50,037 nucleotides of DNA from Sulfuricurvum sp. Lineage in GTDB: Bacteria; Campylobacterota; Campylobacteria; Campylobacterales; Sulfurimonadaceae. Below are positions 5,764-22,814 of this stretch, in pieces. The stretch spans positions 1-50,037 of the forward strand of contig NZ_JAEMQA010000011.1 of assembly GCF_022759005.1 (NCBI RefSeq), given 5' to 3'. The notes below the pieces were generated by a model. That model had not been told where the DNA came from. It ran no database searches and saw nothing but the letters and a program-made list of their open reading frames with translations. Position numbers and translations under genes: made by a program. Within the stretch, counting starts at the first letter, position 1, and every line of letters starts with the position of its first letter.

Positions 5764-6971
5764 TTAGAAGTTATAGCTCAAACGAACCAAAAAGCGGTCA
5801 TATCCACCATCGTATGGGATGTTGCTTCCATCCGGTGACGTATTCGCGATATTTTTATTTTTATCATCAATCATGGCATAGCTCATTTTGGCGGTGAGTG
5901 CTTCATTGATAGCGTAGGCTGCAATCAGATCGGTCTCTCGAACCTTAATATCCATCGGTGCACTTTTAAAATTTCCGTACCGTACGCTCAAAGTAGCCCC
6001 TTCAATTCCTGCATCCGCCATATCAATCGATGCGTTTAATTGATATGCTCGTGCATCCTCCATACCATTAATCGTCATCTCTTCCATGGATGTGTAATAC
6101 GGCCCTCCCCCAAATCCGATAGAGACCGCTTTTCCACTGTCATTGGTTGCTTTGTTGTATGCAGCACCGAAAGTTACCATTCCAATACTGAGATTTACAT
6201 TTGTTCCATACACATTGCCATCAATATTGCTTGCATAGAGTTCGTTAAAACGGCCATATTGTCCTGAGAACTCGACTCCCATTCCCTCATTGATAGCCAA
6301 AGAGTAGGTCGCATCTCCGTAAAAAACATTTGTCATGTTGTCAATTTCGTAATACCATCTTGCAATGCCAGATTTTCAATACTCTCATTAGTCACACCAA
6401 AAAGCGATGATCCATTACTGTTTCCCCTGTTGAGTCTTTTAAATTCAGATATGTCATCACCAGAATCATAACCGGCCCAACGTTTGATGCAACCGCCGAT
6501 CAATGTCGTTTTATCAATTCCGCTGTAAGTCGCGATGGCCGCTTCGAATGTATTGGGATGCATACGGATGTCATCCGTATTGGCTAAAGGGGTGTCGATC
6601 AACTGCCGCCCGATACGTAAACTGAAATCATTTCCACTGTAATCGATATACGCTTCACCGACATATACATACGATTTTGCATTATTGGACAAAACGTCCA
6701 TATTTGCATTATCGCCATCCCCCGTTGCAAATCCGATTTTTTGACTAATATAAGAACCGATTCCTACTTTCAACCCGTTCCAATCGCCACTTTCGTATTT
6801 GAAAATACCACCCAATGATGTCGTATAAGTATCGGTATCGACCGCATTGTCTTGATCCACATATGCCGCACGAAGTTGTCCGCTCACTTTTCCACTCTTG
6901 AATGCATCGTCAATACCGCTTGCACTCAATACGACAACTGCAGCCATGCTCAGAACTATTACTTTTTTCAT
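5764..6971 (-). pseudogene. OprD-type outer-membrane porin, interrupted by a frameshift
   Basis: Two reading frames (6971-6333 and 6336-5764) together encode one porin of about 402 aa. The first has a signal peptide (MKKVIVLSMAAVVVLSAS) and the OprD-like segment RIGRQLIDTPLANTDDIRMH; the second ends in the outer-membrane signature LVRLSYNF. On the minus strand, the reading after IENLALQ goes out of frame at about 6358-6359. Restoring one base gives LQ-x-WYYEIDNMTNVFYGD, which joins the frames without a gap. There is no homopolymer at the break. An RBS (AGAGGG) and two Fur-box-like sites lie upstream and feoAB downstream, so an iron-related uptake role is inferred. It could be a true mutation or a sequencing or assembly error; the rest of both frames looks intact, which favours a recent event. 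Confidence 0.88.
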
Positions 6972-7111: not shown

Positions 7112-7660
7112 ATGCAATTTCTCTGGCGTTCTACCAGTCACTTCAACCTTGCTAATCTCATTACGATGGCCAATATCACCTGCGGTCTTTTAGCTACTTA
7201 CAGTATTACTCAAAATCATTTTGTTATCGCTGCGGCACTAGCGTGGGCAGGGGGAGCATTCGATATTTTTGACGGAAAAGTTGCTCGTAAATACAATCTC
7301 TCTAACGAATTCGGCGTTCAGCTCGACTCCTTCGCCGATTTCTTGAGCTTCGTCCTCGTACCAACCTTTTTTATTTTCCAAGGGGTCTACTCACAGCTTT
7401 CAGGGGTATTATTGATCGTCGCATCAATGATTTCGATCTATTACGTCATCAGCGGGCTTCGCCGTCTGATTCAGTTCAACATCAACACCGATGCGGGAGA
7501 AGTAGCGAAGTTTTTTACAGGGGTACCGACACCCCTTGGAGCGATATTCTTGTGGATCGTGTGGCTCGGATCAGCTTATATCGGAGTTTATGCCGTGATG
7601 ATTTTGATGGTTGTCATCGGTGCATTGTTGAATTCAAAGGTGAAAATTCCGCACTTATAA
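7112..7660 (+). CDS. pssA: CDP-diacylglycerol--serine O-phosphatidyltransferase
   Basis: 182 aa integral membrane protein with the complete CDP-alcohol phosphatidyltransferase signature DG-x2-AR-x8-G-x3-D-x3-D, here running from DGKVAR to DSFAD, preceded by the PssA-type start NLITMANITCGLLA. It makes phosphatidylserine from CDP-diacylglycerol and L-serine, the first committed step to phosphatidylethanolamine. Several hydrophobic helices follow the motif. An AGGAC RBS precedes the ATG and a -10 TATAAT lies at 7074-7079. It diverges from the porin gene and its last bases overlap the convergent rmuC stop. No phosphatidylserine decarboxylase gene is in the window. Confidence 0.95.
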   Translation: MQFLWRSTSHFNLANLITMANITCGLLATYSITQNHFVIAAALAWAGGAFDIFDGKVARKYNLSNEFGVQLDSFADFLSFVLVPTFFIFQGVYSQLSGVLLIVASMISIYYVISGLRRLIQFNINTDAGEVAKFFTGVPTPLGAIFLWIVWLGSAYIGVYAVMILMVVIGALLNSKVKIPHL

Positions 7661-8965
7661 CAGTGTTTCGTCCTCGTCTGCTTCCGTGAGGGATGAGGGC
7701 AACATCTTCTTCGGCTTCAATCCCAATTTTCGCATCGACTCGACACGGCGAATCAAATTCCCTTTTCCGGTGGAGAGTTTGTTCATCGCCCCCTCATAAC
7801 TTTTCTGCGTCCGTCCGATTTGTTCGCCGATTTTTTCCATATCTTCGACAAACGCCACCAGTTTCTCATACAACGCTTCGGCCGATTCAGCAATCGCTTT
7901 GGCATTGCGTTCTTGGTACTCGCTTCGCCAAATATGCTCGATGGTGCGAAGAGTCACGAGAAGTGTGGAAGGAGAGACGACGACAATGTTTTGCTCGTAT
8001 GCTGTTTTAAAGAAAGTATTATCCTGCTCCAGTGCGAGGAGAAATGCCCCCTCGATCGGCATAAAAAGGAGGACAAAATCGAGCGTTCGAATTCCGCTGA
8101 GCTGTTCGTAGCGTTTATTACTGAGCCCTTTGATATGAGAGTGAATGGAGAAGAGGTGTTGTTTGAGGGCGTGAGAACGCTCCTCTTCATTTTCGGCACG
8201 GATAAATGCATCGTACGCAACGAGAGAAACTTTGGAATCGATAATGATGTCTTTGTTCTGCGGCAGATGAACGATAACATCGGGACGGAATTTTTTTCCC
8301 TCCTCATCACTCAGAGTGCTTTGGATCTCATACTCATGCCCCTCTCGCAATCCTGATTCTTCGAGGATACGCTCTAGGACGATTTCCCCCCAGCTCCCCT
8401 GGGTTTTGTTCTCCCCCTTCAGGGCTTGGGTGAGATTAATCGCATCTTGGCTGAGCCGTTCATTGAGGGTTTTGAGACGGAGGATTTCATCCTTGATGCT
8501 TTGGCGCTCTTTAGCATCGTGGATAAACTGCTCTTTGCTCTGGGTCGCGAACTGCGCAATCTGTTCACGAAACGGTTTGAGGAGCAAATCAAGCCCTTTG
8601 GTATGCGCTTCATCAAACGTTTTTGCTTTTTGCTCGAAAATCTGTGCCGCCAGTTGTTCAAACTGCACTTTCATCTGCCCTTTGGCTTCGTCTAAAAGGC
8701 GAATTTTCTCTTCGAAACTTCGTGAGGACTCCTCGTGGCGGGTATGGAGTACCGCGTAATCGCGTTCCAACGCGTGATACTCTTTTTCAGTGGTATCAAG
8801 CTGAGTTTGAAGTCTTGCTTTGAGGGTTTGCTCCTGCGCATAGAGCTCTTGGAGTTGAAGTGCGCGCGTTTCGAGGAGCGCGTAGTGTTGGCGGGATTGG
8901 TTCCACATCCATCCGAGTGTTCCGGCGGCGGCAAAGGCTATTATGGTCGTTATTTCGTATATCAT
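7655..8965 (-). CDS. rmuC: DNA recombination protein RmuC
   Basis: 436 aa. An N-terminal membrane-anchor helix (residues about 1-20) is followed by a long coiled coil (about 25-165), then the RmuC domain with GSWGEIVLERILEESGLREGHEYEIQ-type sequence and a nuclease-like core (KFRPDVIVHLPQNKDIIIDSKVSL). RmuC proteins limit inverted-repeat recombination; the core resembles a PD-(D/E)XK fold. A TATAAT at 8973-8978 lies only 7 nt before the ATG and there is no Shine-Dalgarno, so the mRNA may be leaderless. The gene converges on pssA with a 6 nt overlap. Confidence 0.93.
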   Translation of the reverse strand: MIYEITTIIAFAAAGTLGWMWNQSRQHYALLETRALQLQELYAQEQTLKARLQTQLDTTEKEYHALERDYAVLHTRHEESSRSFEEKIRLLDEAKGQMKVQFEQLAAQIFEQKAKTFDEAHTKGLDLLLKPFREQIAQFATQSKEQFIHDAKERQSIKDEILRLKTLNERLSQDAINLTQALKGENKTQGSWGEIVLERILEESGLREGHEYEIQSTLSDEEGKKFRPDVIVHLPQNKDIIIDSKVSLVAYDAFIRAENEEERSHALKQHLFSIHSHIKGLSNKRYEQLSGIRTLDFVLLFMPIEGAFLLALEQDNTFFKTAYEQNIVVVSPSTLLVTLRTIEHIWRSEYQERNAKAIAESAEALYEKLVAFVEDMEKIGEQIGRTQKSYEGAMNKLSTGKGNLIRRVESMRKLGLKPKKMLPSSLTEADEDETLL

Positions 8966-9438: not shown

Positions 9439-10239
9439 TTAAAACGGATTTCCGTTGATCACCAAACGAAACCCCGTTTCGTTCGATGCATAATCGGGAC
9501 GGGAATATCCGCGAAACGAACTGCGAAGGCACATATAACCCGTCTTATAACTTCCTCCGCGCCGAACCTTAAACGACTCGGCTTCCGCCCCGCCGATGCG
9601 AGGGCTTCCATCGGTGGGTGCGCCGTTGTAGTTAGCAAAGAAATCATCCTCGCACCACTCCCATACGTTTCCGAGCAAATCATAAATCCCGAGCCGATTG
9701 GGCTGCTTCGATCCCACAGCAGCCGTACGGGAATTTGCGGTGTATTCGTAGATAGCGAAATCGTCCAACTGCGCTTCGGAGTCTCCGAAAGTAAATCGGG
9801 TATTCCCCCCCGCTTTGGCGACATATTCCCATTGCGCTTCGGTAGGGAGCGCATAAAAGCGCGTTTTTCCCTCATAACGGTTAATCAATTCCACGTAGGC
9901 TTTGGCATCAAACCAGCTCACTTGCTCTACCGGATGGCGACGGGAATTCTCTTCTTCTACTTTGTCATTTTTAAAAAAAGAGGGATTAACACGGGTCAAT
10001 TTAAAATACTGCTCCTGCGTCACAGGGTATTTCGAAATCCAAAACCCCTCCAGCTTAACAGGATGTTCAGGGGACTCAACCTCTCCCCCTTCGTTATACT
10101 GGGGATTACGCCCCATCATAAACTCTCCGGCATCGATATACAAAAACTCCATACCGATCGAATTGGTAAAATCTCTGGGAGTTTCTACCGTCTCCGCCGA
10201 TTCAGCAGCTTTGTTTTTCTTTTTTAAAAAATCGAACAA
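9439..10239 (-). CDS. FGE-sulfatase (SUMF1) fold protein
   Basis: 266 aa with the whole formylglycine-generating-enzyme/C-type-lectin fold: GMEFLYIDAGEFMMG near the start, then GFWISKYPVTQEQYF, LPTEAQWEYVAKAGG, GNVWEWCEDD and RRGGSYKTGYMCLRSSFRG near the end. The start is TTG at 10239 with AAAAGG 6 nt upstream. True FGEs carry two cysteines in the GGSF-x2-C-x4-C segment; here the first is replaced (GGSYKT) and only the second remains, so sulfatase activation is unlikely. No sulfatase or ergothioneine gene is nearby. There is no signal peptide; the lysine-rich N-terminus (FLKKKNK) suggests a cytoplasmic protein. Substrate unknown. Confidence 0.88.
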   Translation of the reverse strand: MFDFLKKKNKAAESAETVETPRDFTNSIGMEFLYIDAGEFMMGRNPQYNEGGEVESPEHPVKLEGFWISKYPVTQEQYFKLTRVNPSFFKNDKVEEENSRRHPVEQVSWFDAKAYVELINRYEGKTRFYALPTEAQWEYVAKAGGNTRFTFGDSEAQLDDFAIYEYTANSRTAAVGSKQPNRLGIYDLLGNVWEWCEDDFFANYNGAPTDGSPRIGGAEAESFKVRRGGSYKTGYMCLRSSFRGYSRPDYASNETGFRLVINGNPF

Positions 10240-11768: not shown

Positions 11769-11849
11769 CACCAAAATGAGCAAAACCCATTTTAGTGGCC
11801 GGACGAATGTCCTCTGCACCCCCCCTGAAGCTACCGGCACAAGTGCCGG
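11769..11849 (+). ncRNA. Three-hairpin structured RNA element, copy A (rho-murI)
   Basis: Stem 1 pairs 11769-11778 with 11788-11797 (9 of 10 pairs, loop AGCAAAACC). Stem 2 is GGAC-GAAT-GTCC at 11801-11812. A C-rich linker with TGCA and AAGCT follows, then stem 3 CCGGCA-CAAG-TGCCGG (11834-11849). The same architecture and single-stranded bases recur at 14754-14837. The element starts 7 nt after the rho stop and ends 16 nt before the murI ATG. Its GGAG (11848-11851), the only SD-like sequence before murI, overlaps stem 3. I do not recognise a known riboswitch or leader class. It may be a 3'UTR element of rho, a 3'UTR-derived sRNA, or a control element for murI. Confidence 0.68.
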
Positions 11850-14910: not shown

Positions 14911-15096
14911 ATGGAAAGCAAGGAAGCCGTTTTAAACGCACTCAAAGAGGGGAAAAAACTGACCAGTAACGTAACAGGGTTGCAATACACCCTTATCGGC
15001 GGTCAGCTTCATGCACGCAGCGGAGAAAAAACCGATTGGCACGAAAGTGAACTTTGCTTTGACAATCCCCCCTCTTGGCTCAATCTCCGAGACTGA
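14911..15096 (+). CDS. Small hypothetical protein
   Basis: 61 aa, not recognised. It has a good AAAGGA RBS 9 nt before the ATG and normal codon use, so it is probably expressed. It is mixed alpha/beta by eye: a lysine-rich N-terminal helix, then LQYTLIGGQLHARSG and an acidic WHESELCFDNPPSWLNLRD tail. No signal peptide or membrane segment. It lies 73 nt downstream of structured element B; a promoter may lie within 14855-14900. Confidence 0.65.
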   Translation: MESKEAVLNALKEGKKLTSNVTGLQYTLIGGQLHARSGEKTDWHESELCFDNPPSWLNLRD

Positions 15097-15164
15097 GCCT
15101 CTCTTTTTAACTCCCCTATATTTTTTTGTGCTACCCTCCTGTATTTAGAAAATACGAGGTACTT

Positions 15165-17923: not shown

Positions 17924-18166
17924 ATGCAATCGCTTAAATACTTAGCCAATTACAGCCAAGAGATACGTCAACAGGTTCAAGAACTGATCGATGCCGATCG
18001 ATTGGGTGAGCGTCTATTAGCCAAATATCCCGATACCCATAACCAGAGCACCGACAAAGCCCTCTACGACTACGTCCAGCTCGAATTCGAGGTGCGGCTC
18101 TATCTCACCTACCTCGATCGATTCGGAGAACTTTATTCTCGCACCAACTCCACTAGTACTTCATAA
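17924..18166 (+). pseudogene. Internally deleted YgjP-like (DUF45/M48-type) protein
   Basis: 80 aa from the ATG at 17924. The N-terminal half (LKYLANYSQEIRQQVQELI, LLAKYP, TDKALYDYV) matches the start of YgjP-like metal-dependent hydrolases in this phylum, and the C-terminal half (QLEFEVRLYLTYLDRFGELY) matches their end. The whole middle, including the zinc-binding HExxH helix, is absent although the frame is open. No good RBS is visible. The 3' end overlaps the convergent trmA by 34 nt. It is probably a non-functional deletion product; a genuine short protein is less likely. Confidence 0.6.
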
Positions 18167-19251
18167 TGGGCGGTATGCGGAAACATATCGAAGAGTTGAA
18201 CTCTGTTGATCCCATAGCCGCCCAACATCTCAAGATCTTTCGCTAAACTCATCGCATTACAGCTCGAATAGAGGATTCTCTCCGCGCCGATCCGCCCCAG
18301 CCATTTACAAATCTGTTCCCCCAATCCCCTACGGGGAGGGTTGACGATAATACAATCAGGTTTCTCACCCGACGTAGCGCTAAAGGTTGCGGCATCGAGC
18401 GACTCAAACGCTATGCTCTCAATTTCCAGCATCTTGGCCGAATCACGGGCACATTCGATCGCCTCTCGCTCGATCTCGATCCCGACAATACACCGCTCTG
18501 GTGTGGCACAGTGCAAAGCAAACCCCCCTACTCCGCAAAACAGATCCCATAACAATTTCGGGCTGCTCTCGTTTACCCATCCGCTTGCGGTGCGGTAAAG
18601 TTTCTCGGCTACTTCGGGATTGGTTTGAAAAAAGCTTTTTGGACGGATAAAGAGAGGGACATTGTTGAGCCGCTCTTCGATGCGCTCCTGTTCGGTAAGA
18701 AATATCTCCTCATCCCCTTCCAAAATCGCCATGTGTACCGGTTGGATATTGACTGAAACAACTTGTAGATCGGGGATTTTTTCCATTAAATCATCGAGTC
18801 CGTTTTTTAACCGTCCGATGATGCCGTGAGAGCGAAGGACAAAACGGAGCATCATCGACCCGCTGGAATGACTACGGGTGAGGAGGACATATTTCAGTTC
18901 CCCTTTTCTCAACCGTACATCATACCCCTTGACGCCCAAACCGCGAAGCCACTCTTGGATCAAATGAAGTGCGTTTTGCATGGATGCGGGATACAGAGGA
19001 CATTCGATCAAACTCACCTCTTCGGCGATGCCGAGTACGACACCGTCCCATGAAGGGGAAGCGACCATTTTGGCCTTATTACGAAATCCTTTGAGGGTTG
19101 ATGTGGCAGGCTTAAGCCACTCTCTTGGGGAGTGTGCATCTAGTAGTGTGTGAAGATGATCGCTTTTTAGTTTTAGCTGTTCGGCATAGTGGTAATCAAT
19201 CCATCCGCACGAGTGACAAAAATTGGCATCAAAGTAAGAACAAAAACTCAT
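18133..19251 (-). CDS. trmA: tRNA (uracil-5-)-methyltransferase
   Basis: 372 aa, normal TrmA length, without a TRAM domain. It has the SAM-binding motif LFCGVGGFALHCA, the motif IIVNPPRRGLG and the catalytic cysteine region ILYSSCNAMSLAKDL near 322-336. TrmA makes m5U54 (ribothymidine) in the T loop of tRNA. The N-terminus (FCSYFDANFCHSCGWIDYHY) carries cysteines and fits the TrmA branch without a full RumA Fe-S set. The CZB gene lies just upstream on the same strand. Confidence 0.9.
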   Translation of the reverse strand: MSFCSYFDANFCHSCGWIDYHYAEQLKLKSDHLHTLLDAHSPREWLKPATSTLKGFRNKAKMVASPSWDGVVLGIAEEVSLIECPLYPASMQNALHLIQEWLRGLGVKGYDVRLRKGELKYVLLTRSHSSGSMMLRFVLRSHGIIGRLKNGLDDLMEKIPDLQVVSVNIQPVHMAILEGDEEIFLTEQERIEERLNNVPLFIRPKSFFQTNPEVAEKLYRTASGWVNESSPKLLWDLFCGVGGFALHCATPERCIVGIEIEREAIECARDSAKMLEIESIAFESLDAATFSATSGEKPDCIIVNPPRRGLGEQICKWLGRIGAERILYSSCNAMSLAKDLEMLGGYGINRVQLFDMFPHTAHYEVLVELVRE

Positions 19252-19263
19252 AATTTCCTTTAT

Positions 19264-19698
19264 TTATATCCCAGTAATACTGGCGTCAAACGAACTTTGC
19301 GGTATCGCATACAACCGTCGTTCAAGCCGTCCGATATGCTCTAATATCTCCTCGGAAGCCGGTTGGAGTTTGATGAAATGCTCTTTGGCGATCTCTCGCT
19401 CCGCATCGGTGATCTTTTTCTTCGTGTTAAACAATTTGGAGAAAAATGATCGGTCGGTATTGACAAAAAAGATTTTAAAAATATGCATGTATTCATCATG
19501 CAACGTGACATGGGCTTTTTCAATCTCTCCCAAACAGGTCATATTCCCCAACGCATTGAGTTTTTGACCGTCGCTGTAAAACCATTCGCCGAATTTACAG
19601 TCGGTATAGCTCAAAGGTATCGCACTCTCATCAACGGAAAGCCCTTCGATCAACAGCTTCGCTCTTTGTACCCATTTAACGTGCGCTTTTTTTTGCAT
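19264..19698 (-). CDS. CZB (chemoreceptor zinc-binding) domain protein; N-terminus out of frame
   Basis: 144 aa as read from 19698. It has the CZB ligand pattern: AHVKWVQRAKLL (His), DCKFGEWFYSDGQ (Cys), IEKAHVTLHDEYMHIF (two His). Stand-alone CZB proteins sense zinc or oxidants. The ATG at 19698 has no RBS. An upstream ATG at 19732 reads MDKTITLQHLSDAKK and would join the domain in frame if the A8 tract at 19687-19694 had seven As, which gives the family-like sequence DAKKAHVKWV. So the gene is either shifted off by one A, phase-variable, or mis-sequenced. Confidence 0.82.
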   Translation of the reverse strand: MQKKAHVKWVQRAKLLIEGLSVDESAIPLSYTDCKFGEWFYSDGQKLNALGNMTCLGEIEKAHVTLHDEYMHIFKIFFVNTDRSFFSKLFNTKKKITDAEREIAKEHFIKLQPASEEILEHIGRLERRLYAIPQSSFDASITGI

Positions 19699-19783
19699 CG
19701 CTTAAATGCTGCAATGTAATAGTTTTGTCCATAATACGTCATCCACCTTTGATGTAATAGTACAATTATACCGAGCAAATATC

Positions 19784-19815: not shown

Positions 19816-19838
19816 CTGAAAAACAACTACGGTTGTTT
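19816..19838 (-). terminator. Intrinsic terminator of mfd
   Basis: On the minus strand AAACAAC-CGTA-GTTGTTT (19838-19821) forms a 7 bp stem followed by TTC. It overlaps the mfd stop codon. The stem is short, so efficiency may be modest. Confidence 0.5.
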
Positions 19839-22814
19839 GGTTTTCAATCCCCGTAAATACTGTAATACGGCACCGATCAGATCGTCATCGTCTTTGCTCT
19901 TGCTTTGCAGCGTCTCTTTGACTCCGCTTTGGTATTCGATCGTGATGTTTTGGTTGAAATTACTCACCATTTTGATCTTCTTCTCGATACACAGCAGTTT
20001 GATCACCATGATTTCGAAAAACTGCTTCGTCGGGGTATCGGGTTTGCCGAAGCGGTCATTCACCTCTTCTTCGATATCATAAATCTCGCTGGGTGATTCG
20101 CATTGGCTGAGGCGGCGATAGAGCTCCAATCTCAAACGATCTTCGCTCACCACCTCATCACTGATGAACGCACTGACGGTGAGTTTGATGTCCACTTTGG
20201 CACGGACGCTGCTCGTTTGGTTGGTGAGAAGTTTGATTGCATCCTCCAACATCCGCAAATACAATGCATACCCGATATTTTTGATGTGTCCGCTTTGGGC
20301 ATCGCCGACGAGGTTTCCACCGCCGCGAATTTCGAGATCGTGATACGCGAGCATCGATCCGCTGCCGAGGAATGAGTTGGATTCGAGTGCGACGAGCCGT
20401 TTTTTCGCCTCTTCGGTGAGGTGATCTTTGTCATCCACGATAAAATACGCGTACCCCTCGATATGTCCCCGTCCGACCCGTCCGCGAAGCTGGTGGAGAT
20501 CCGCCATACCGAACCGATCGGCTCCGTCAATGATCATCGTATTGACCGTCGGCATATGGATCCCCGATTCGATGATCGAGGTCGCCAAAAGGACATCGTA
20601 CTCCCGATTGGCAAATTTTGCCAACTCCTCTTCAGTTTGGGTCGCGCTGATTTGGGAGTGGAGAATGAGGATACGCAGATCAGGGAGGATCGCTTTGAGT
20701 TCTCCCGACTTGATTACCATCGAATCGATCGAGTTATGGACATAAAACACCTGCCCCCCGCGACGGAGTTCCCGCAAAATCACCTCTTTGATCAGTTTCT
20801 CGTCGTAATTTTTCACAAACGTCCGCACCCCGAGGCGCTCAGACGGCGGAGTGAGAAGTTCAGACATGGTTTTGATCGAACTGAGCGCCTGATTGAGACT
20901 TCGCGGGATCGGGGTCGCGCTCATGCTGAGCAAATGAACGTTCTCATAGAGCGATTTGAGTTTCTCTTTTTGTTTCACTCCGAATTTGTGCTCTTCATCG
21001 ATGATCACCAGCCCCAGCTTCGCACAATTTACCCCGAAAAGTGCGTGGGTTCCGACGACACAATCGAGCTCCCCCGCTTCCAGCGCCCTCAGGGTCGCAT
21101 TTTTCTCTTTGGTACTGACGAAGCGATCGAGCTTCGCCACCCGAATCCCGAACGGTGCAAGACGCGCTTTGAGCGATTGGAAATGCTGAGAGCTGAGTAA
21201 TGTCGTCGGAACGACGAGGAGCGATTGAAACCCCCCTTTTGCGGCGGCGAAAATCGCATTCATCGCTACCTCGGTTTTTCCAAAACCGACATCCCCGCTC
21301 AACAACCGATCCATGATATGCCCCGATGCCAGATCACGGACAATGGAGTTGATGGCACTGGCTTGATCGGCAGTGTACTCAAATCCCGCAGCGGCTTGGA
21401 AGGCACGCAATTCTCCTGCGTCCACGCTTATCACGGAGGCTTTGATCAGTGCACGGCTCGCCGCAATCCCGACAATCTCGGAGGCGATTTCAAACAATCG
21501 CGCTTTAACCGTCTCTTTGAGCTTGCCGAAGCTCCCTTTGCCCAGACGATCCAGCACCGGCAGAGATCCTGTCGCGATATAGCGATCGATCGCATCGAGA
21601 TTTTCGACGGGCAGGAGGAGTTTGTCATCCCCCATGTATTTGATCACGACAAGATCTTTGACTCCTCCGAGGATTTCGGCTTGCTCGATCCCGACAAATA
21701 TCCCGACTCCGTACTCTTCATGGACAACATAATCGCCCACTTTCAGATCATCGAGGAGAATCGACGTTCGGCGGCGACGGCGCTTTTTCTCATGGCGGTT
21801 GAGAGAGAAGATAATCTCGTTCTCACTAATGAGATTGAGGACAATCCCTGAGGTTTTGAGAGTGATCTCTTTGAGATCAAAGATACCGGCGGCTTTGAGC
21901 TGGGTATCGCTCGCGGCGATGAGGGTAAATTTTTTCGTTTTATGGATGCTTCGGAGCGTCTCGAAATTCCCTCCGCCCAGCGGCATATAGTGCTGTGATT
22001 CGGGAAGTATCTCGACTTCGAGCCTTGCACGCGGAAGCACAGGTTGATTGAGTCCGTACGCTTCATCGAGGACGCTTTTCATCTCACGGATACGTGCAAC
22101 TCTTTTTCCCTCACATAGATCGATGCCGTATTCACCCAACACCCAAAACCCGAGCGAGGCGATGTCTTTGACAAAGCTATCGCTTTGGGAAGAGGCAACC
22201 GCTTTTTCAAAATAGCGGTATTGCTCCGAATCTAAAGAGAAAAAGGCGCTCGTAATTTCAACAGAGGCCAACTCCTCTTTGTCGGTACGCTGGGTTTCGA
22301 CATCGAACGCTTTAATCTCTTCAACCTCATCGTCAAAGAGGCTGATACGGTACGGATTGCTTTGGTTTGGGACGTAAATGTCAAGAATGTCCCCGCGATG
22401 GGATACTTCCCCCTCCATCTCCACCATATCGACAAACGTATAGCCCCAATGGATCAGTTTCTCTTTAAACGCATTCAAATCGATACGGGAAGCAAACTCG
22501 ATGGTCTCGCTTTGAAGCAATTCCGCACGCGGCATCGGAAACAAAAGTGTTTTAAGCGGCGAGATGATGAGCGGTTTTTTGGATGCATTGTAGTAAGAAC
22601 GCAATGCCGCAAAAAGGGCAAAAAGTTCCTCTCCAAACGGACGTAAATCATCCATATACGCCGCACGAAAATCGGGCAATATGATATGCTTAATCCCTAA
22701 AAATGCCGATACATCGCTCAGCTCAGTAGCTTCTTTGGCATCCTCGCACACAAGGATTTCAGGGAGATTTTTCGGGTTGTTTTTGGCGTATTCATACCAT
22801 CGTGCTTGTGACAT
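19827..22814 (-). CDS. mfd: Transcription-repair coupling factor Mfd
   Basis: 995 aa, shorter than E. coli Mfd (1148 aa) mainly in the N-terminal UvrB-like part, as in other Campylobacterota. The RNA-polymerase-interacting domain starts near VGDYVVHEEYGVGIFVG. The RecG-like translocase has Walker A GDVGFGKTEVA, the DEEH box (IIDEEHKFGV), SATPIPRSL and QLRGRVGRG. Mfd removes stalled RNA polymerase and recruits UvrA. The ATG lies inside the 3' end of folC (23 nt overlap). Confidence 0.97.
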   Translation of the reverse strand: MSQARWYEYAKNNPKNLPEILVCEDAKEATELSDVSAFLGIKHIILPDFRAAYMDDLRPFGEELFALFAALRSYYNASKKPLIISPLKTLLFPMPRAELLQSETIEFASRIDLNAFKEKLIHWGYTFVDMVEMEGEVSHRGDILDIYVPNQSNPYRISLFDDEVEEIKAFDVETQRTDKEELASVEITSAFFSLDSEQYRYFEKAVASSQSDSFVKDIASLGFWVLGEYGIDLCEGKRVARIREMKSVLDEAYGLNQPVLPRARLEVEILPESQHYMPLGGGNFETLRSIHKTKKFTLIAASDTQLKAAGIFDLKEITLKTSGIVLNLISENEIIFSLNRHEKKRRRRRTSILLDDLKVGDYVVHEEYGVGIFVGIEQAEILGGVKDLVVIKYMGDDKLLLPVENLDAIDRYIATGSLPVLDRLGKGSFGKLKETVKARLFEIASEIVGIAASRALIKASVISVDAGELRAFQAAAGFEYTADQASAINSIVRDLASGHIMDRLLSGDVGFGKTEVAMNAIFAAAKGGFQSLLVVPTTLLSSQHFQSLKARLAPFGIRVAKLDRFVSTKEKNATLRALEAGELDCVVGTHALFGVNCAKLGLVIIDEEHKFGVKQKEKLKSLYENVHLLSMSATPIPRSLNQALSSIKTMSELLTPPSERLGVRTFVKNYDEKLIKEVILRELRRGGQVFYVHNSIDSMVIKSGELKAILPDLRILILHSQISATQTEEELAKFANREYDVLLATSIIESGIHMPTVNTMIIDGADRFGMADLHQLRGRVGRGHIEGYAYFIVDDKDHLTEEAKKRLVALESNSFLGSGSMLAYHDLEIRGGGNLVGDAQSGHIKNIGYALYLRMLEDAIKLLTNQTSSVRAKVDIKLTVSAFISDEVVSEDRLRLELYRRLSQCESPSEIYDIEEEVNDRFGKPDTPTKQFFEIMVIKLLCIEKKIKMVSNFNQNITIEYQSGVKETLQSKSKDDDDLIGAVLQYLRGLKTKQP

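Follow-up and report, generated by a model that had tools for sequence, protein, structure and literature searches.

Genetic organization of the czb locus

The analyzed window (50,037 nt) is the entire contig C2 of a draft assembly of Sulfuricurvum sp. (GCF_022759005.1; 158 contigs, 1.74 Mb). On its minus strand, a small gene for a chemoreceptor zinc-binding (CZB) domain protein (here czb) lies between a transcription-repair coupling factor gene and a gene for a tRNA (uracil-5-)-methyltransferase-like protein (Table 1). Reading of the upstream start codon (19732-19730) opens MDKTITLQHLSDAKK, reaches AAAAAAAA at 19694-19687, continues with SAR and terminates at TAA (19678-19676), and the loss of frame at the A8 tract described from the letters in the preliminary description was thus seen again here. 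The start and the body of the czb gene disagree by one base. The CZB-frame ORF is called from an internal ATG (19698) that is overlapped by the stub ORF and is spelled by the AT of GAT together with the G of GCA; the extra A is the sole cause of this ATG being in the CZB frame. Compared with the nearest relative, the spacing between AAAGGTGG and the upstream ATG is longer by 4 nt. A TATAAT box was found 25-31 nt ahead of the start in each of the 15 homologues inspected, all drawn from the 28 of the genus, and a sigma-70 promoter scan returned one weak site that did not exceed shuffled sequence. Elsewhere in the window, the stretch 7655-8965 (-) matched the PADLOC model RTasRmuC with 397.5 bits, a name that suggests an RmuC-like protein and not necessarily a defence function.

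Table 1 Features of the czb locus and its neighbours (window coordinates).
Feature	Position	Strand	Remarks
TATAAT (-10-like) box	19765..19770	(-)	32 nt upstream of ATG 19732
AAAGGTGG, probable ribosome-binding site for ATG 19732	19743..19750	(-)	assigned by eye
Stub ORF MDKTITLQHLSDAKKSAR followed by a stop, 18 codons	19676..19732	(-)	ancestral start region of czb, no longer in the frame of the body
A8 tract	19687..19694	(-)	site of the frame break; A2-A7 at the same place in relatives
Internal ATG	19696..19698	(-)	letters from Asp-Ala codons (GAT GCA); ribosome site absent by eye
CZB-frame ORF, 144 aa, begins MQKKAHVKWVQRAKLL	19264..19698	(-)	from the ORF list; Pfam CZB (PF13682)
Transcription-repair coupling factor (Mfd/TRCF)	19827..22814	(-)	upstream neighbour; Pfam TRCF, CarD_TRCF_RID, DEAD, Helicase_C
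tRNA (uracil-5-)-methyltransferase-like protein	18133..19251	(-)	downstream neighbour; PF05958

Homologues place the start upstream of the A8 tract

The gene was compared with 34 close homologues, of which 28 belong to the genus (21 genomes) and six come from other Campylobacterales; these include paralogues and near-duplicates and do not amount to 34 independent events. Left out were L074, which has 39% identity and lacks the tract, another 15 matches at 25-38% identity, and L075-L079 as duplicates from the same contigs as G014, G004, G026, G025 and G009. In every one of the 34, a start codon (27 ATG, five GTG and two TTG) stands precisely 13 codons ahead of residue K14 of a KKAH-type motif, with one frame throughout, and in the nearest relative MDKTVTLQSLSDAKKAHVKW is continuous in one frame. 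The codons of the stub still match those of relative G014 (MDKTITLQHLSDA versus MDKTVTLQSLSDA). Beyond what chance would produce, the 13 codons of the stub and the CZB body are two halves of one conserved gene. The comparison supports ATG 19732 as the ancestral start of a gene now one A out of frame, and the wording "one A too many" relative to the ancestral frame is well supported. In one relative (G032:C89), the CZB gene is present in two tandem copies (L008 and L067).

An alternative is that the internal ATG is a genuine start and the ORF upstream of it a product of chance. This ATG opens the ORF given by the mechanical caller, but none of the 34 close homologues begins there, and both the sequence and the spacing of the 13 upstream codons are conserved; the orthologues have largely refuted this reading, to which we give almost no credence, and the internal Met was rejected as the family start. 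The letters of the internal ATG are also present in many homologues but outside the CZB frame, and therefore the internal start and the frame break are a single event; this ATG is not a relict start. The preliminary description had proposed comparing orthologue N-termini, holding that the upstream start fits CZB proteins better than the current ATG, which it called devoid of a ribosome-binding site. The comparison favours the upstream start, and inspection by eye agrees on the missing ribosome site.

The CZB body is conserved and would lack half of its predicted first helix

In a Pfam search, CZB (PF13682) was the sole domain match in the 144-aa ORF, with 38.8 bits against a cut-off of 29.4 (37.1 bits for an intact relative). 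Residues H17, C45, F47, G48, W50, H74 and H78 were invariant in 12 aligned sequences including that of the window, in which the 3His/1Cys zinc-site set and the CxFGxW motif are both present. By its sequence, the czb product is a CZB domain protein and a predicted zinc sensor. AlphaFold modelling of the intact relative (mean pLDDT 83.8) places helix alpha-1 at residues 3-28, and the frame break falls within it at residues 14-15. According to this model, a product begun at ATG 19698 would keep the three His and the Cys and lose the N-terminal half of helix alpha-1, which the window's own start cannot supply in frame. In CZB domains, residues 1 to 30 are described as a large part of the homodimer interface (PMC8262984, in extract). 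A sequence search of solved structures returned no CZB chain (best E 0.94, unrelated), and Foldseek with the relative's model returned nothing at E ≤ 0.001.

Between the window and G014, the CZB body carries 68 synonymous and 13 non-synonymous differences, a comparison in which synonymous sites are saturated and for which no dN/dS ratio is given; there are no stops and no other length change. The ten codons that differ in amino acid between the two were assigned to branches with four outgroups, five to each. The body is, from these counts, under purifying selection and undecayed, and since the amino-acid changes split evenly between the branches, the break would be recent. At E ≤ 1e-10, a czb match was found in 22 of 41 genus genomes and was absent from the other 19, some of these genomes being incomplete; the window's own genome holds four other CZB loci. 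Loss of the czb gene may be tolerated, considering this distribution and these further loci.

Tract length in relatives and across the genome

At the position of the A8 tract, the 34 close homologues carry A7 (12), A6 (12), A5 (five), A3 (four) or A2 (one), always in frame and in no case A8, and the length follows the codons chosen for Ala-Lys-Lys or its variants. The 12 homologues with A7 stand one slip from A8. The window contains six A8 tracts against 11.15 expected in shuffles, and at least six were found in 90 of 100 shuffles; a tract of this length is thus not unusual. A 450 kb sample of the same genome (the window plus 20 stretches of 20 kb) held 58 tracts of at least eight, and inside its ORFs of at least 100 aa we counted 28 A8 on the coding strand, one A9 and nine T8. 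The czb A8 was the only one of the 58 tracts found to break a gene. The underlying screen gave seven rows over four tracts, including that of czb. Loci L097 and L104 were rejected as breaks and assigned to neighbouring separate genes, and L100 was rejected as a leader ahead of a gene that we take, from the look of its protein, to be glutamyl-tRNA synthetase-like. At czb, the +1 change (171 aa) was the only one that the screen listed; with the tract shortened by one, about 155 codons result, which falls under the 1.15-fold threshold. Tracts of C or G, the more usual kind in phase variation in this group, were represented by two C7 in the window (9805-9811 and 11819-11825) and by three C9/G9 and one C8 in the 450 kb sample.

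A frame-switch screen against the ORFs of G014, which is blind to breaks near gene ends and hence to the czb gene itself, covered 131 matched ORFs (43,430 codons) and gave three pairs, one of them credible; the reverse comparison gave none in 128. Pair L101 was dropped as a false upstream extension whose true start likely lies inside, and the pair at window position 15137 as a minus-strand ORF opposite a small plus-strand ORF (14911-15096). An OprD-like porin gene at 5764-6971 (-) is split into overlapping ORFs (6333-6971 and 5764-6336); it has one base fewer than in G014, outside any homopolymer, and is read without a break in G014 and G015. On both screens, we rejected the idea that homopolymers break frames throughout the assembly.

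A search for the MutL family (PF01119) was negative in all 31 genomes of the order, the window's own included, while 11 of 14 controls were positive. MutS (PF01624) gave one match in the window's own genome, and a statement of "no mismatch repair" therefore refers to MutL alone. Campylobacter jejuni is described as devoid of functional mismatch repair, and short poly-A tracts vary there (PMC5530802 and PMC3928116, in extract).

Origin and consequence of the eighth A

The explanation we favour, at somewhat better than even odds in our judgement, is that A7 recently slipped to A8 in a lineage devoid of MutL, leaving the czb gene off or weak. Synonymous drift to GCA AAA AAA would have created a run of seven As, which replication slippage in such a lineage could have extended to eight. 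Ribosomes starting at ATG 19732 would halt after 18 codons in the A8 allele, and the gene would be off or strongly reduced in the cells represented by the contig; at best some product would arise from the weak internal start or from the rare transcript short of one A, and low residual expression by internal initiation or slippage may occur. In principle the slip could revert, as in any tract of this kind. That the extra A is real in the organism, by what cause it arose and how it affects expression is what we infer. The next most likely reading, which we regard as doubtful but well ahead of the others, is an error of consensus or assembly at the eighth A, with an intact seven-A gene in the organism. 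It would agree with the undecayed CZB body, with the origin of the contig in a fragmented draft and with the porin as a second one-base frame break on the same contig, the reverse comparison having found none in G014. Against it, A8 and T8 tracts elsewhere stay in frame, and the credible further frame switch is a single one among all matched ORFs. Short-read data are rarely wrong at A8, which also counts against an error. Two one-base frame breaks on one contig nevertheless keep a sequence error in consideration, beside gene decay.

Expression could also be rescued in useful protein amounts, either through some transcripts being one A shorter or through re-initiation at ATG 19698, which lies within the overlap with the stub ORF. 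Bacterial slippage on runs of A or T is documented, with an efficiency that depends on the organism, but in the same source, seen in extract, avoidance in many genomes is evident at nine and not at eight (PMC1088944), and E. coli transcripts are described as seldom carrying deletions in their homopolymeric tracts (PMC5574713, in extract). A -1 ribosomal shift, read from the sequence, leads to the wrong frame and was rejected, and the internal start, with no ribosome site by eye, would halve helix alpha-1. We consider such a rescue improbable. Equally slim is the prospect of an evolved phase-variable switch in which A8 is off, A7 is on and both states of a zinc/redox sensor are kept in the population. 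The preliminary description had proposed that a length change would toggle the zinc sensor by a mechanism common in Campylobacterota. Its mechanical part holds, as A8 is out of frame and the A7 of relatives in frame, so that a change in length would shift the czb reading frame; the tract is close to the 5' end, MutL is absent, and variation is known for Campylobacter poly-A tracts of comparable length (pgp1 A8, PMC5133587; flgR/flgS poly-A, PMC3928116; see also PMC5530802; all in extract). The extension to czb as a switch is not supported. A contingency locus would be expected to maintain its tract among relatives, whereas here the length ranges from A2 to A7 in the 34 homologues and is set by synonymous codons; A8 is ordinary in this genome, the czb gene is not a surface antigen, and the one paper found to join "phase variation" and "CZB" was unrelated imaging work. 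Because the tract is not kept in relatives and such tracts are common here, the switch is an extrapolation, and an evolved zinc-sensor switch is unlikely.

For annotation, the locus calls for a correction: gene callers will give a 144-aa protein with a false Met, and the family begins 13 codons ahead of KKAH. Should the tract vary in the population, phase variation by short poly-A tracts would extend to a cytosolic zinc/redox sensor in a free-living, environmental member of the Campylobacterota.

Comparison with known systems

A close parallel to the czb tract in the same bacterial group is the A8 tract of pgp1 in Campylobacter jejuni and C. coli, where a coding-region A tract of 7-9 likewise sets the frame (PMC5133587 and PMC5530802, in extract). 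Among 859 Campylobacter genomes, 830 were reported with A8, 20 with A9 and nine with A7 (PMC5133587, in extract). In pgp1, A8 is the intact length and variants occur in many genomes, whereas in czb it is the broken length, known from one genome, in a tract that is not kept. Poly-G/C contingency loci of Campylobacterota have in common with the proposed slip that strand slippage changes the frame where mismatch repair is incomplete, but they are long G/C runs, largely in genes for surface structures (PMC3928116, in extract), and czb, a small sensor gene, has a short run of As.

At the protein level, the model of the intact relative aligns with the CZB domain of E. coli DgcZ (PDB 3t9o; rmsd 3.1 over 118 residues, 18% identity), with a Z of 10.2 that ranked 29th and a level of Z ~10 also reached by unrelated helical bundles. 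This alignment starts at model residue 2, and the lost N-terminal half-helix would therefore have a counterpart in DgcZ. DgcZ carries a GGDEF domain (PMC8262984, in extract), whereas CZB was the sole Pfam domain detected here. In this respect the window's protein is akin to the CZB-only proteins, a subgroup of CZB proteins in the same source, with which it shares a PF13682 score above the cut-off, the 3His/1Cys set, the CxFGxW motif and the lack of any other Pfam domain; it differs from them in the one base that separates its start from its body.
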